This document shows, in pieces, positions 42,114 to 63,685 of a stretch of 64,000 nucleotides of DNA. The stretch is taken from assembly GCA_028714315.1 (NCBI GenBank), contig JAQTMN010000004.1:1-64000 (forward strand), given 5' to 3'. The position numbers and the translations under genes are program-made. The stretch comes from Sulfuricella sp. Lineage in GTDB: Bacteria; Pseudomonadota; Gammaproteobacteria; Burkholderiales; Sulfuricellaceae. Position 1 is the first letter of the stretch, and each line of letters begins with the position of its first letter. The notes under the pieces were generated by a model that was not told where the DNA came from, searched no databases, and saw only the letters and a program-made list of their open reading frames with translations.

Positions 42114-42208
42114 GCCTAACGAACGCTTCGAGCCGACCGCCCAAAAGCTGCGCTTTTGGGTTCCCTCCGCGCTGCGCGCTCTGGCGGCGCTCAAGCTGGA
42201 CGTTGACG
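42114..42208 (+). other. attC site 2 (about 95 bp)
   Basis: Starts gcctaac; ends gttgacg, an imperfect R' core directly followed by the IS1182-like fragment. Internal hairpins gcccaaaagctgcgcttttg and gcgctgcgcgc are seen. Confidence 0.6.
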
Positions 42209-42346
42209 CTGTAGAAAAGCCCCGTCCCACCCGCTTCTCTGGCATAATTATGCAAACGTACTTACCGCACGGAGAGTGACGAAGATGGCGCGATTCAAGC
42301 CGGTTCACCAAGGACTTAAACTGCTGCCGGTCGATTTCGAGCGGCA
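42209..42346 (+). mobile_element. 5' fragment of an IS1182-like element
   Basis: 138 bp nearly identical to 45230-45367, covering the leader tgtagaaaa..ccccgtccc and the first 20 or so transposase codons (MARFKPVHQGLKLLPVDFER). It stops where the ggggtc repeat array and RAYT copy 1 begin. Confidence 0.85.
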
Positions 42347-42466
42347 CAAAAAAGGGGTCACGGCACAAAAAAGGGGTCACATCTTTAAGAAGAAAAAGGG
42401 GTCAGAAGAAAAAGGGGTCACATCTTGAAAAGAGAAGAAAAAGAGCAAGGAAAAAGGGGTCGAAAA
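42347..42466. repeat. Array of degenerate RAYT left ends (ggggtc repeats)
   Basis: Five imperfect copies of aaaaaaggggtcacatctt in 120 bp, just outside RAYT copy 1's own left end. Spacing is irregular, unlike a simple tandem repeat. Confidence 0.8.
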
Positions 42467-43388
42467 GGGGTCGCATCTTGACATAACAGTCTCAAGATAC
42501 CAAACTCTACCCATGGCACGCTCCCTCAGACTCGAATTTCCCGGCGCGATTTATCACGTGACCTCTCGCGGCAATGCCCAGCAGGCGGTCTTTGCCGACG
42601 ACGAGGACCGGGAACGGTTTCTCGCTATATTGGGGGAAACGGTCACGCACTTCGGCTGGCTCTGCCACGCCTACTGCCTGATGGACAACCACTACCATTT
42701 GATCATCGAGACGCCGGATGGCAACCTCTCGCCGGGAATGCGGCAGCTCAATGGAGTTTACACCCAACGGTTCAATCGCCGACACGGTCGCGTCGGCCAT
42801 CTCTTCCAAGGCCGGTTCAAGAGCATTCTGGTGGACCGCGACAGCTACCTACTGGAGCTTTGCCGCTACGTAGTGCTCAACCCGATTCGAGCGAAGATGG
42901 TGAAAAAACTCGATGGGTATCCCTGGAGCAGCTATCCGGCGACCATCGGCAATGCGCCCGTGCCGAACTGGCTTGCGACCGACTGGGTGCTGAGCCAATT
43001 TGGCCGCAACCGCGCAGCGGCCCGACAGAAGTACGTCGCGTTTGTGGCCGAGGGAAAGATGCTGCCCTCACCTTGGCAGGCCCTGAAAGGGCAGGTGCTG
43101 CTCGGCTCGGAGGGCTTCGTGGAACGGATGGGCACGCTGTTGGGAAGCAAAAGCGACCTGAAAGAGATTCCCCGCAGCCAGCGCTTTGCGCACCGCCCGA
43201 GCTTGGCCGATATGTTTCCGACAAGTACGCAGGGAAACAAGCCGGCGCGCGACGTGGCAATCCGACGTGCTTATCTGGAATTTGGCTATACGCTGGCTAG
43301 CATCGCGAAGCAGGCCGGCGTGCACTATTCGACCGTGAGCAAGGTCATCAAGGGTGTGCGATAGTCCGTCATGTCAAGATGTGACCCC
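42467..43388 (+). mobile_element. RAYT element copy 1 (922 bp)
   Basis: Bounded by ggggtcgcatcttgacat at the left and atgtcaagatgtgacccc at the right (inverted, one mismatch). It contains one transposase gene and is nearly identical to copy 2 (46823-47744), differing at a few bases near the left end. Confidence 0.85.
42513..43364 (+). CDS. REP-associated tyrosine transposase (Y1/HUH), copy 1
   Basis: A 283-residue transposase of the IS200-like Y1 group, REP-associated (TnpA_REP/RAYT) type. It has the HUH motif in MDNHYHLIIE, the nucleophile Tyr in GVYTQRFNRRH, the helix GHLFQGRFKSILVD and LCRYVVLNPIRAKMV. The C-terminal part adds a helix-turn-helix (YTLASIAKQAGVHYSTVSKV). Such enzymes cut single-stranded hairpins. 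The protein is identical to that of copy 2, so both copies are young or kept alike by gene conversion. ATG at 42513 is preceded by ctaccc only, a weak ribosome site. Confidence 0.92.
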   Translation: MARSLRLEFPGAIYHVTSRGNAQQAVFADDEDRERFLAILGETVTHFGWLCHAYCLMDNHYHLIIETPDGNLSPGMRQLNGVYTQRFNRRHGRVGHLFQGRFKSILVDRDSYLLELCRYVVLNPIRAKMVKKLDGYPWSSYPATIGNAPVPNWLATDWVLSQFGRNRAAARQKYVAFVAEGKMLPSPWQALKGQVLLGSEGFVERMGTLLGSKSDLKEIPRSQRFAHRPSLADMFPTSTQGNKPARDVAIRRAYLEFGYTLASIAKQAGVHYSTVSKVIKGVR

Positions 43389-43529
43389 ATTATGCGTACC
43401 GACCAAGGCGACATTTGCGCGCCGGATATGGGCGTCCGGCGCTTTCAGGCCTCCCTTCATCTCTTCGCAAAAAGACTTCGCCTCATGACGTTCGGTTGAC
43501 TTCACCCCGCGTGTCGTTACAATCCCCAT
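43374..43529 (-). pseudogene. Truncated minus-strand ORF cut by RAYT copy 1
   Basis: Reads MGIVTTRGVKSTERHEAKSF onward for 47 codons and is then fused to the RAYT right end, which supplies TGA. I do not recognise it. It lies against attC3 and in the orientation opposite to the cassettes, so it is either a cassette remnant in reverse or the 5' end of an older gene. Confidence 0.4.
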
Positions 43530-45157: not shown

Positions 45158-45229
45158 ACCTAACAATCCTTTCCAGCGGACAGTCCGCCAGCTTCGCTGT
45201 CGGCCTGCCGCTGAACTCCGTCGTTGACG
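45158..45229 (+). other. attC site 6 (72 bp)
   Basis: R'' acctaac; R' gttgacg (imperfect, as in attC2) followed at once by the IS1182-like 5' end. Internal arms cagcggacagtccgccagc / gctgtcggcctgccgctg. Confidence 0.75.
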
Positions 45230-45305
45230 TTGTAGAAAAACCCCGTCCCACCCGCTTCTCTGGCATAATTATGCAAACGTACTTACCACACGGAGAGTGA
45301 CGAAG

Positions 45306-45920
45306 ATGGCGCGATTCAAGCCGGTTCACCAAGGACTCAAACTGCTGCCGGTCGATTTCGAGCGGCAGCTTCTTCCCGGCACCTTCGAGCACGCCCTGTC
45401 CTACCTGGTCGACCACGAACTCGATTTGTCCGAGCTCGAGGCCCGCTACCGCAACGACTACCAGGGCGCCTCTGCGTATTCTCCCGCCGTCCTACTCAAG
45501 ATCGTTCTGCTCGCCTACAGCCGCGGCATCGTCGGCAGCCGCAGGATCGAAGCGGCTTGCCGCGAGAATGTGCTGTTCATGGCGCTGTCCGGCGATAGTC
45601 AGCCTCACTTCACTACGCTTGCGGGGTTCATCGGCAACATGGGCGACATGGCCGCCAAGCTGTTTGCCCAAGTGCTTGTCATCTGCGACCGGCAGAGATT
45701 GATCGGGCGCGAGATGTTCGCCATCGACGGGGTGAAGTTGCCCTCCAATGCGTCCAAGGCCAGGAGCGGCACCCGCAAGGATTTCCAGCGCCAGGCACAG
45801 AAGATGGAGAAAGCCGCCCAGAAGATGCTGGATCAGCATCGCGCCGCCGATGCGGTTCCTCCGGACAATCCCTCGCGGTCTTGCCCTTGCCTTCGACTAG
45901 TGGTTATCATGCGTCCATGA
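45306..45920 (+). pseudogene. Truncated IS1182-family transposase
   Basis: The first 180 or so codons match the N-terminal DUF772 part of IS1182-type transposases: MARFKPVHQGLKLLPVDFER, SYLVDHELDLSELEARYRNDYQG, ASAYSPAVLLKIVLLAYSRGIVGSRRIEAACRENV. After DQHRAADAV the sequence becomes unrelated and stops 20 codons later, so the catalytic DDE core is lost (full proteins are about 450-500 residues). A 138-bp piece of the same element lies at 42209-42346. Both pieces begin at an attC core. Confidence 0.85.
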
Positions 45921-46766: not shown

Positions 46767-46796
46767 CCCATCATTCGAGCGCGCGCCCAAAGAGCC
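46761..46796 (+). other. attC site 8, left half only
   Basis: ggctaacccatcattcgag shares aacccatcattcgag with attC1, then breaks at cgcgcgcccaaagagcc where RAYT copy 2 material begins. No right half is found after the element. Confidence 0.7.
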
Positions 46797-46822
46797 AAAG
46801 AGGGGTCACAAAGAGCCAAAGA

Positions 46823-47744
46823 GGGGTCACATCTTGACATAACAGTCTCAAGATACGAAACTCTACCCATGGCGCGCTCCCTCAGGCTCGAATTTCCCGG
46901 TGCGATTTATCACGTGACCTCCCGTGGCAATGCCCAGCAGGCGGTCTTTGCCGACGACGAGGACCGGGAACGGTTTCTCGCTATATTGGGGGAAACGGTC
47001 ACGCACTTCGGCTGGCTCTGCCACGCCTACTGCCTGATGGACAACCACTACCATTTGATCATCGAGACGCCGGATGGCAACCTCTCGCCGGGAATGCGGC
47101 AGCTCAATGGAGTTTACACCCAACGGTTCAATCGCCGACACGGTCGCGTCGGCCATCTCTTCCAAGGCCGGTTCAAGAGCATTCTGGTGGACCGCGACAG
47201 CTACCTACTGGAGCTTTGCCGCTACGTAGTGCTCAACCCGATTCGAGCGAAGATGGTGAAAAAACTCGATGGGTATCCCTGGAGCAGCTATCCGGCGACC
47301 ATCGGCAATGCGCCCGTGCCGAACTGGCTTGCGACCGACTGGGTGCTGAGCCAATTTGGCCGCAACCGCGCAGCGGCCCGACAGAAGTACGTCGCGTTTG
47401 TGGCCGAGGGAAAGATGCTGCCCTCACCTTGGCAGGCCCTGAAAGGGCAGGTGCTGCTCGGCTCGGAGGGCTTCGTGGAACGGATGGGCACGCTGTTGGG
47501 AAGCAAAAGCGACCTGAAAGAGATTCCCCGCAGCCAGCGCTTTGCGCACCGCCCGAGCTTGGCCGATATGTTTCCGACAAGTACGCAGGGAAACAAGCCG
47601 GCGCGCGACGTGGCAATCCGACGTGCTTATCTGGAATTTGGCTATACGCTGGCTAGCATCGCGAAGCAGGCCGGCGTGCACTATTCGACCGTGAGCAAGG
47701 TCATCAAGGGTGTGCGATAGTCCGTCATGTCAAGATGTGACCCC
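46823..47744 (+). mobile_element. RAYT element copy 2 (922 bp)
   Basis: Perfect 18-bp terminal inverted repeat: ggggtcacatcttgacat / atgtcaagatgtgacccc. Same length and near-identical sequence to copy 1. One extra ggggtc end lies to the left (46801-46809). Confidence 0.9.
46869..47720 (+). CDS. REP-associated tyrosine transposase (Y1/HUH), copy 2
   Basis: The 283-residue product is identical to that of copy 1: HUH motif HYH, catalytic Tyr in GVYTQRFNRR and C-terminal helix-turn-helix. The only base differences noticed are silent or in the leader (for example ggcgcgctccctcaggctcg against ggcacgctccctcagactcg). RAYTs are normally single-copy domesticated genes, so two identical copies with defined ends indicate recent mobility. 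It interrupts attC8. Confidence 0.92.
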   Translation: MARSLRLEFPGAIYHVTSRGNAQQAVFADDEDRERFLAILGETVTHFGWLCHAYCLMDNHYHLIIETPDGNLSPGMRQLNGVYTQRFNRRHGRVGHLFQGRFKSILVDRDSYLLELCRYVVLNPIRAKMVKKLDGYPWSSYPATIGNAPVPNWLATDWVLSQFGRNRAAARQKYVAFVAEGKMLPSPWQALKGQVLLGSEGFVERMGTLLGSKSDLKEIPRSQRFAHRPSLADMFPTSTQGNKPARDVAIRRAYLEFGYTLASIAKQAGVHYSTVSKVIKGVR

Positions 47745-47935
47745 ATTATGCGTGCATTATGTGATGCGTGCGTCATGTCAAGATGTGACCCCATTATGTG
47801 ATGTGACCCCATTATGTGATGAGATGTGACCCCATTATGTGATGACCCCATTATGTGAAGATATGACCCCATTATGATGCTTTTATGATGTGACCCCATT
47901 ATGATGCTTTGTGCATTAAGACGTGACCCCGTTAT
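47745..47935. repeat. Array of degenerate RAYT right ends (tgtgaccccattatg)
   Basis: Seven further imperfect copies of atgtgaccccattatgtgat after the element's own right end, with irregular spacing of about 15-35 bp. Mirror image of the left-end array at 42347-42466. Confidence 0.85.
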
Positions 47936-48049
47936 GGTGTGCTGCAGGGTGGCGCTGCACTTGATCGGGGAGTGAGCAGGATTTCCCGTGCTGCCGGCCT
48001 GCGCGCAATCCAGTAAAATTCGGCTATCCATCTGCCATCGGACTCTCCC

Positions 48050-62844: not shown

Positions 62845-62886
62845 GTTGTCAGTCTTCAGTGGTCAGTTTTCAGTTAAAGCCGACCA

Positions 62887-62968
62887 CTGAAAACTGAAAA
62901 CTGAAAACTGAAAACTGAAAACTGAAAACTGAAAACTGAAAACTGAAAACTGAAAACTGAAAACTGAA
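62887..62968 (+). repeat. 7-bp microsatellite (ctgaaaa)n directly before dnaQ
   Basis: Eleven perfect ctgaaaa units (62887-62963) followed by ctgaaa, then the dnaQ ATG at 62969. The repeat thus replaces the normal ribosome-binding region. Nearby upstream, cagtggtcagttttcag is its inverted counterpart. Confidence 0.95.
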
Positions 62969-63685
62969 ATGCGCCAAATCATCCTGGATACCGAAACCAC
63001 CGGCCTGGACCCCAAGCTCGGCCACCGCATCATCGAAGTGGCGGGAGTCGAAATGGTCAACCGGCGCCTGACCGGCAACCATTTCCATCAATACGTCAAC
63101 CCGCAGCGCGAGATCGACCCCGGCGCGCAGCAGGTGCACGGCATTTCGCTGGAATTCCTGCAGGACAAGCCTCTGTTCAGCGACATCGCCAAGGATTTCA
63201 TCGAGTTCGTCGGCGGCGCAGAGCTGGTCATCCACAACGCGCCGTTCGACATCGGCTTCCTCGACCACGAGCTGAAACTGATGGGGGCCGGGCCGATCAA
63301 GACTCACTGCCCGGCCGTGACCGATACCCTGAAAATGGCCAAGGACCTGCACCCCGGCCAGAAAAACAACCTCGATGCCCTGTGCCGCCGCTACGCGGTG
63401 GACAACTCCGGCCGCACCATGCACGGCGCGCTGCTGGATACGGAATTGCTCGCCGAAGTCTTCCTCGCCATGACGCGCGGCCAGGACAGCCTGATTATCG
63501 AAACGGCGGAAACGGACGGCAGCCTGGCCGTCGCGGATGGCGAATGCGTGGCGCACGACCTGACGGTTCTCGCGGCCCAGCCCGACGAACTCGAATCGCA
63601 CCGCGCCTACCTGGCCGATCTCGACAAGGCCAGCAAGGGGCGATGCCTGTGGCTGGCGCGAGAACAGGCGGCGAGCGTGGGGTAG
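62969..63685 (+). CDS. dnaQ: DNA polymerase III epsilon subunit (proofreading exonuclease)
   Basis: A 238-residue DEDDh exonuclease: Exo I LDTETTGLD, Exo II HNAPFDIGFLDHE, Exo III HGALLDTELLAEVFLAM. Length and C-terminal helical tail fit the replicative proofreading subunit rather than a stand-alone exonuclease. It removes misincorporated bases within the polymerase III core with alpha and theta. The start codon directly abuts a heptanucleotide microsatellite with no Shine-Dalgarno sequence, so its translation may depend on coupling to rnhA or an unstructured leader. Confidence 0.96.
   Translation: MRQIILDTETTGLDPKLGHRIIEVAGVEMVNRRLTGNHFHQYVNPQREIDPGAQQVHGISLEFLQDKPLFSDIAKDFIEFVGGAELVIHNAPFDIGFLDHELKLMGAGPIKTHCPAVTDTLKMAKDLHPGQKNNLDALCRRYAVDNSGRTMHGALLDTELLAEVFLAMTRGQDSLIIETAETDGSLAVADGECVAHDLTVLAAQPDELESHRAYLADLDKASKGRCLWLAREQAASVG

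Follow-up and report, generated by a model that had tools for sequence, protein, structure and literature searches.

The closest described systems to the locus studied here are the TIRYT elements, or TIRtrons, which are defined by GGGGWSAS inverted repeats (Di Nocera et al. 2013, PMC3733652) and have been equated with subclass 2.1 of the TnpA-Y1 transposases, group 1 of Bertels (Quentin et al. 2018, PMC6006769). A 2018 survey found TIRYTs in ~15% of the species it covered (PMC6006769). As they appear in the sections of these two papers that describe them, they share with our element a Y1 HUH transposase with the motifs NHYH and Y-x-x-LNP and terminal inverted repeats (TIRs) of the GGGGWSAS type; a C-terminal HTH-like domain also belongs to the group and is weakly detected in our element. 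The same sections record dimers or clusters for many TIR elements (Di Nocera et al., PMC3733652), and make no mention of gene-adjacent arrays of element tips, of a terminus outside the GGGG motif, or of anchored tandem duplications.

The transposase is also related to those of the REPtrons (RAYT, TnpA-REP). REPs are reiterated in tandem together with flanking DNA of variable length, according to the section of the TIRYT paper that deals with them (PMC3733652), and BIMEs too occur consecutively in tandem (PMC8266576). In contrast to such BIME and tandem REP clusters, our locus has no GTAG-tagged palindrome, and its repeated units are truncated tips at the element's own ends, fixed on the outer side and free on the inner. 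With the IS200/IS605 family (IS608, ISDra2) the element has in common the HUH/Y1 chemistry and a cleavage site, predicted in our case, that lies outside the recognized end and is separated from it by a linker. However, the asymmetric subterminal hairpins of that family were not seen here, their place being taken by symmetric, near-perfect inverted repeats; the same event affects both ends on opposite strands, and no second gene (tnpB) lies between the TIRs. Our literature search, which had bioRxiv preprints and subscription journals outside its scope, found no tip arrays at the ends of Y1 transposons, no anchored breakpoints or mechanism for them, and no biochemistry for TIRYT subclass 2.1. 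The element family is known; its array-forming behavior appears to be new.

The window analyzed here is a stretch of 64,000 nt from a Sulfuricella contig (JAQTMN010000004.1) that contains two copies of the element. By its sequence it belongs with the TIR-associated Y1 transposase units (TIRYT/TIRtron, TnpA-Y1 subclass 2.1) and is not a classical REP-flanked RAYT; RAYT was the name used for it in the initial annotation. The transposase genes of copy 1 (42513..43364) and copy 2 (46869..47720) both lie on the forward strand and encode identical proteins of 283 aa, in which Pfam recognizes the Y1 domain of the IS200 type (PF01797, 46.1 bits against a cut-off of 23); the NCBIfam model REP_Tyr_transpos reaches 75.1 bits, under its cut-off of 80. 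The HUH motif (NHYH, residues 59-62) and the catalytic Tyr119 (in YVVLNP) are kept in 99-100% of 147 relatives. At the C-terminus, where the HTH of a TIRYT is expected as Bac_DnaA_C, HTH_23, or HTH_28, residues 260-280 gave a sub-threshold match to a LacI-type HTH (E 9e-4, 19.4 bits against a cut-off of 27), and the conservation of this region among relatives is moderate. A search of solved structures by sequence returned no match. GTAG-tagged REP palindromes are absent from the flanks, which carry instead the terminal inverted repeats GGGGTCACATCTTGACATAAC and GTCATGTCAAGATGTGACCCC. These are 95% complementary over 21 nt, read GGGGTCAC, and satisfy the TIRYT inverted-repeat motif GGGG[AT][CG]A[CG] (GGGGWSAS). 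Most relatives have GGGTC ~46 nt upstream of the gene and again 20-40 nt downstream.

The native right end of copy 2 (47724..47753, forward strand) is the inverted-repeat partner of 46823-46848 and carries a GACCC core at 47739 and the linker ATTATGCGT, common to copy 1. It is continued by a right-end array (47751..47936, forward strand) in which exactly seven more GACCC cores are found, at 47787, 47805, 47828, 47844, 47865, 47892, and 47925, so that successive spacings are 48, 18, 23, 16, 21, 27, and 33 nt. With up to three mismatches allowed, the 16-mer ATGTGACCCCATTATG matches the window at 12 places, a number that none of 100 shuffles reached, where the expectation is 0.27. Each of the seven further units consists of a constant outer part and an element tip cut at a differing length. 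The constant part is the linker CATAAT with GGGGTC in the reverse complement, or GACCCC with ATTATG in the forward reading, where a unit runs from truncated tip through GACCCC to the linker ATTATG(TG). The spacing is irregular because the outer part is constant and the truncation of the tip differs from unit to unit. The initial annotation, which had described seven more imperfect copies of the right end at irregular spacing and held them to be degenerate copies of the element's own end instead of a simple tandem repeat, is borne out by this anatomy.

The left end of copy 2 (46788..46848, forward strand) carries one tandem duplication, with GGGTC at 46803 and 46824, the duplicated 21 nt being the linker CAAAGAGCCAAAGAG and GGGTCA. 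In copy 1, the mirror image of the right-end array is found at the left end (42339..42488, forward strand), with six GGGTC motifs at 42355, 42374, 42399, 42415, 42457, and 42468, the last of which is native. The right end of copy 1 (43368..43397, forward strand) is single, with linker ATTATGCGT and GACCC at 43383. Both the array of copy 1 (42355-42468) and the second left-end unit of copy 2 had previously been missed. Copy 1 is hosted in the 5' part of a remnant of another IS (42201..42346, forward strand; 97% identical to 45222-45367), which fixes the boundary between target DNA and linker. At the DNA level the two copies are 99.1% identical over 936 nt, and these near-identical copies bear different arrays, at opposite ends. 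Their eight substitutions and single indel all fall within the first ~110 nt by the left end (42463-42570 versus 46818-46926) and the other 800 nt are identical, a distribution that raises the question of gene conversion or of error-prone resynthesis by the array. The window also contains, at 62886-62969, a perfect 7-nt tandem repeat of ~11-12 copies of CTGAAAA that has no relation to the element.

A set of 173 distinct relatives was gathered, and the motif was scanned over 400 nt on the outer side of the gene. Of the 249 ends with a recognizable motif, 82 had it at least twice, and a perfect terminus-anchored tandem duplication was present at 69 distinct ends; the search for similar arrays in other genomes that had been suggested thus returned them at other copies and in other genomes. 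Motif orientation was outward-consistent in 276 cases and inverted in 44 at left ends (n = 158), and 223 versus 40 at right ends (n = 159). Among 97 elements with both ends readable, the array was on the left only in 17, on the right only in 18, and at both ends in 14. Left and right arrays are therefore about equally common, and the one-sidedness initially ascribed to them is already contradicted by copy 1; the associated idea of 'one-ended events' survives if taken broadly, to mean that the two ends act independently. The hosts are beta-, gamma-, and deltaproteobacteria, Nitrospirae, and others. The transposase was detected at E < 1e-60 in 61 of 369 genomes sampled from the class, and the closest host relatives, as judged from matching contigs, include Sulfuricella and Sulfurimicrobium genomes. 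A scan of IMG/VR with the transposase gave no relatives, and a plasmid collection gave only relatives below 60% identity and no strain series sharing the same insertion. An assembly artefact was rejected in view of the presence of arrays in many independent assemblies, including ones not labelled as MAGs (the Undibacterium isolates at loci L033 and L041).

At both ends and across many genomes, the duplications are anchored on the outer side and variable on the inner. Perfect tandem duplications were sought at the 249 ends without requiring any motif, an unbiased scan that replaced the parsing of spacers into 'prefix + suffix', which was oversensitive to later mutation in long arrays. The density of duplications per 10 nt per 100 ends was 12-15 at 15-30 nt outside the native motif versus ~0.1-0.3 at 200-460 nt. 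The outer breakpoint lay 25 nt or less outside GGGTC in 95 of 113 duplications, with medians relative to GGGTC of -10 (left ends) and -10.5 (right ends) and an interquartile range of -12 to -9 at both. It is not single-valued (-13 to -6) and its base preference is weak, the first two bases being mostly AA or CA and the second almost never T. The inner breakpoint ranges overall from just before GGGTC to ~280 nt inside the element, peaking at 0, directly before GGGTC, and at +6, directly after GGGTCA; in the perfect duplications it tails to +83. Most units hold 0-20 nt of element interior and nothing from the opposite end, and linker-only duplications (7-12 nt) are also frequent. A separate mismatch-tolerant scan recovered longer units, of 75-283 nt, most of which begin 8-17 nt outside a motif and which extend into the gene (e.g., L133, L144, L130). 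Long units in L144 (G015:C176), L131, L111, L036, and L130 copy the first 20-80 or last ~60 transposase codons, so that N- or C-terminal fragments of the gene lie next to it.

Junction microhomology in units of at least 8 nt was distributed as 54/21/9/2/1/1, compared with 50/22/9.5/3.4/1.1/0.2 for simulated random breakpoints, and this agreement with random expectation argues against ordinary slippage. Some junctions do show microhomology (AGCAAG in L144, CTGAT in L031). Existing arrays have probably been edited later by slippage or recombination, an example being the three identical 23-nt units of L147.

Three independent signs place the terminus of the element at the same distance outside GGGGTC. 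Paralogous copies in L026 that are 100% identical share only 7 nt outside GGGTC, an ORF-less pair in the Sulfuricella genome itself (L128) shares ~8 and ~9 nt, and the two window copies have 10 nt in common at the right end; the target IS around copy 1 stops 7-10 nt before GGGTC; and base composition, random farther out, becomes non-random from about -9 inward. The duplications thus have their outer breakpoint at the terminus of the element, the place where a transposase would cut. The outermost duplication of copy 1 begins 3-5 nt beyond this inferred terminus and takes in bases of the target IS. At both ends, T is depleted (7-11%) at positions -9 to -7 relative to GGGTC, with no base fixed.

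The arrays also change in place. Loci L031 and L032 represent the same insertion in two related genomes, with flanks 92-97% identical and the same neighbours, and when array length is compared between them, as had been recommended, the left end has six motifs in one and two in the other. The right end is the same single copy in both. Arrays therefore grow or shrink without movement of the element.

We propose, with a probability of roughly 55%, that the Y1 HUH transposase of the element itself has built the array, as a string of tandem duplications anchored at the terminus, through nicking, extension, and religation. The transposase would bind one TIR (GGGGTCAC...) and nick the strand ~7-13 nt outside GGGTC, at the terminus of the element. 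The 5' end of the linker would then be linked to the enzyme, and the flank would be left with a 3'-OH. From this 3'-OH a polymerase would proceed inward across the linker, GGGGTC, and a stretch of the element of variable length, and the enzyme-bound strand would be displaced; the extended 3'-OH would attack the 5'-phosphotyrosine and reseal the strand. Linker, tip, and a variable length of interior would now be present twice, replication would fix the duplication, and repetition of the cycle would produce an irregular array, with constant outer and variable inner boundaries, at either end. This is the simplest reaction that fixes the outer breakpoint and frees the inner one without microhomology. 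It was shown in vitro that E. coli TnpA-REP cleaves ssDNA to a Tyr-5'P and a 3'-OH, and that the tyrosine link is resolved by an added 3'-OH strand, which becomes joined to the 5' side (PMC8266576). This joining is the resealing step proposed here, although those experiments used added oligonucleotides and REPs and not polymerase-extended ends or TIRs; the extension of the flank 3'-OH before resealing is a step that we infer. Since the pattern is mirror-imaged at the two ends, the nick at each TIR would fall on a strand of its own, which distinguishes the element from IS608. The inner peaks at 0 and +6 are not predicted by the proposed cycle unless something further is assumed, for instance that bound protein acts as a roadblock.

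The main rival to nicking, extension, and religation is the insertion of fragments in trans, in which the transposase would excise short single-stranded pieces (linker, tip, and some interior) and insert them at another cleaved terminus of its own, for example on the sister chromosome, in a REPIN-like fashion. The sequence outcome would be the same, with a fixed outer and free inner breakpoint and no microhomology, and the inner peak at +6 could mark a second cleavage site. We nevertheless consider this reading unlikely, for it demands two molecules and a second, mostly non-specific internal cut with endpoints from 0 to ~280 nt, and tip units are not scattered in the Sulfuricella genome, where the relaxed right-end motif occurs on contig C4 only and the exact TIR core on C4 and in a few element remnants, with no dispersed units beyond them. 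The target preference for its own end that the initial annotation had invoked implies instead that whole elements inserted repeatedly beside or into an existing end and then suffered internal deletions. Nested and adjacent copies do exist (L082, L026), but every deletion would have had to stop exactly at the linker of the next copy, and the short interiors of most units carry nothing of the opposite end. This is the least probable of the explanations considered, given exact terminus-anchored units with free inner endpoints and the change in place at L031/L032.

Slippage or template switching at a replication fork stalled by the palindromic TIR would dispense with catalysis by the transposase altogether. 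TIRs could indeed stall forks, identical units occur in some arrays, and the L144 and L031 junctions offer 5-6 nt of microhomology. Such an origin is distinctly unlikely, more so than fragment insertion, when at both ends the outer breakpoint is confined to ~4 nt, the inner is free, and microhomology as a whole does not exceed chance. Unit lengths, moreover, are irregular, where a regular length had been named at the outset as the mark of ordinary slippage, and a simple tandem repeat (VNTR) grown by slippage was rejected on the same irregular spacing and random microhomology. Finally, staggered double-strand breaks at the terminus, with a fixed outer nick and a variable opposite one, followed by fill-in and ligation, could act in the manner of target-site duplications, and fill-in of 5' overhangs would also duplicate the stretch between the nicks without microhomology. 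End joining, which would be required together with the second variable nick, is probably missing in many of these bacteria, and staggers of 80-280 nt are implausible, making this route highly improbable.

We give even odds to the broader proposition of a Y1 HUH transposase that, in addition to transposing or in place of it, writes terminus-anchored tandem duplications at its own ends through nicking, polymerase extension, and religation. It would do so in several phyla and at TIRs of either side, both in cis and, probably, in trans where derivatives lack the ORF; the papers searched describe no such reaction for this class of enzymes. The arrays would then be a natural record of the enzyme's site of action, marking a terminus ~7-13 nt outside GGGGTC and predicting the nicking of each TIR on its own strand. 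If nicking, extension, and religation indeed take place, local DNA growth can be driven by an enzyme with a single tyrosine and requires neither double-strand breaks nor homology, and the reaction provides a concrete model for the origin of tandem REP and TIR clusters, a long-open question.

Other loci of the Sulfuricella genome carry related structures. L128 (C12:43600-45600; local positions ~710-820 and ~1020-1170) contains a pair of miniature copies without an ORF (MITEs, ~95 bp) that carry the element's TIRs and lie ~310 bp apart. Each has extra right-end units, which suggests action in trans. L126 (C10:45800-48800) has at local positions 380-560 an array of the left-end type, in which seven or more GGGTC units belong to a related subfamily (AGTTCTAACATTCC type), and nearby at 1480-1590 a solitary right end of four units with no transposase gene directly attached. 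In L127 (C11:1-135), the contig ends in a short tandem repeat (CTTGCTCTTG type) that adjoins the outer side of another TIR of the element; the assembly broke at this point. In Nitrospira, the related insertions L069 and L084 have a downstream flank in common for at least 447 nt and different upstream flanks, a pattern for which one-ended movement together with downstream DNA, or recombination, is a possible explanation.
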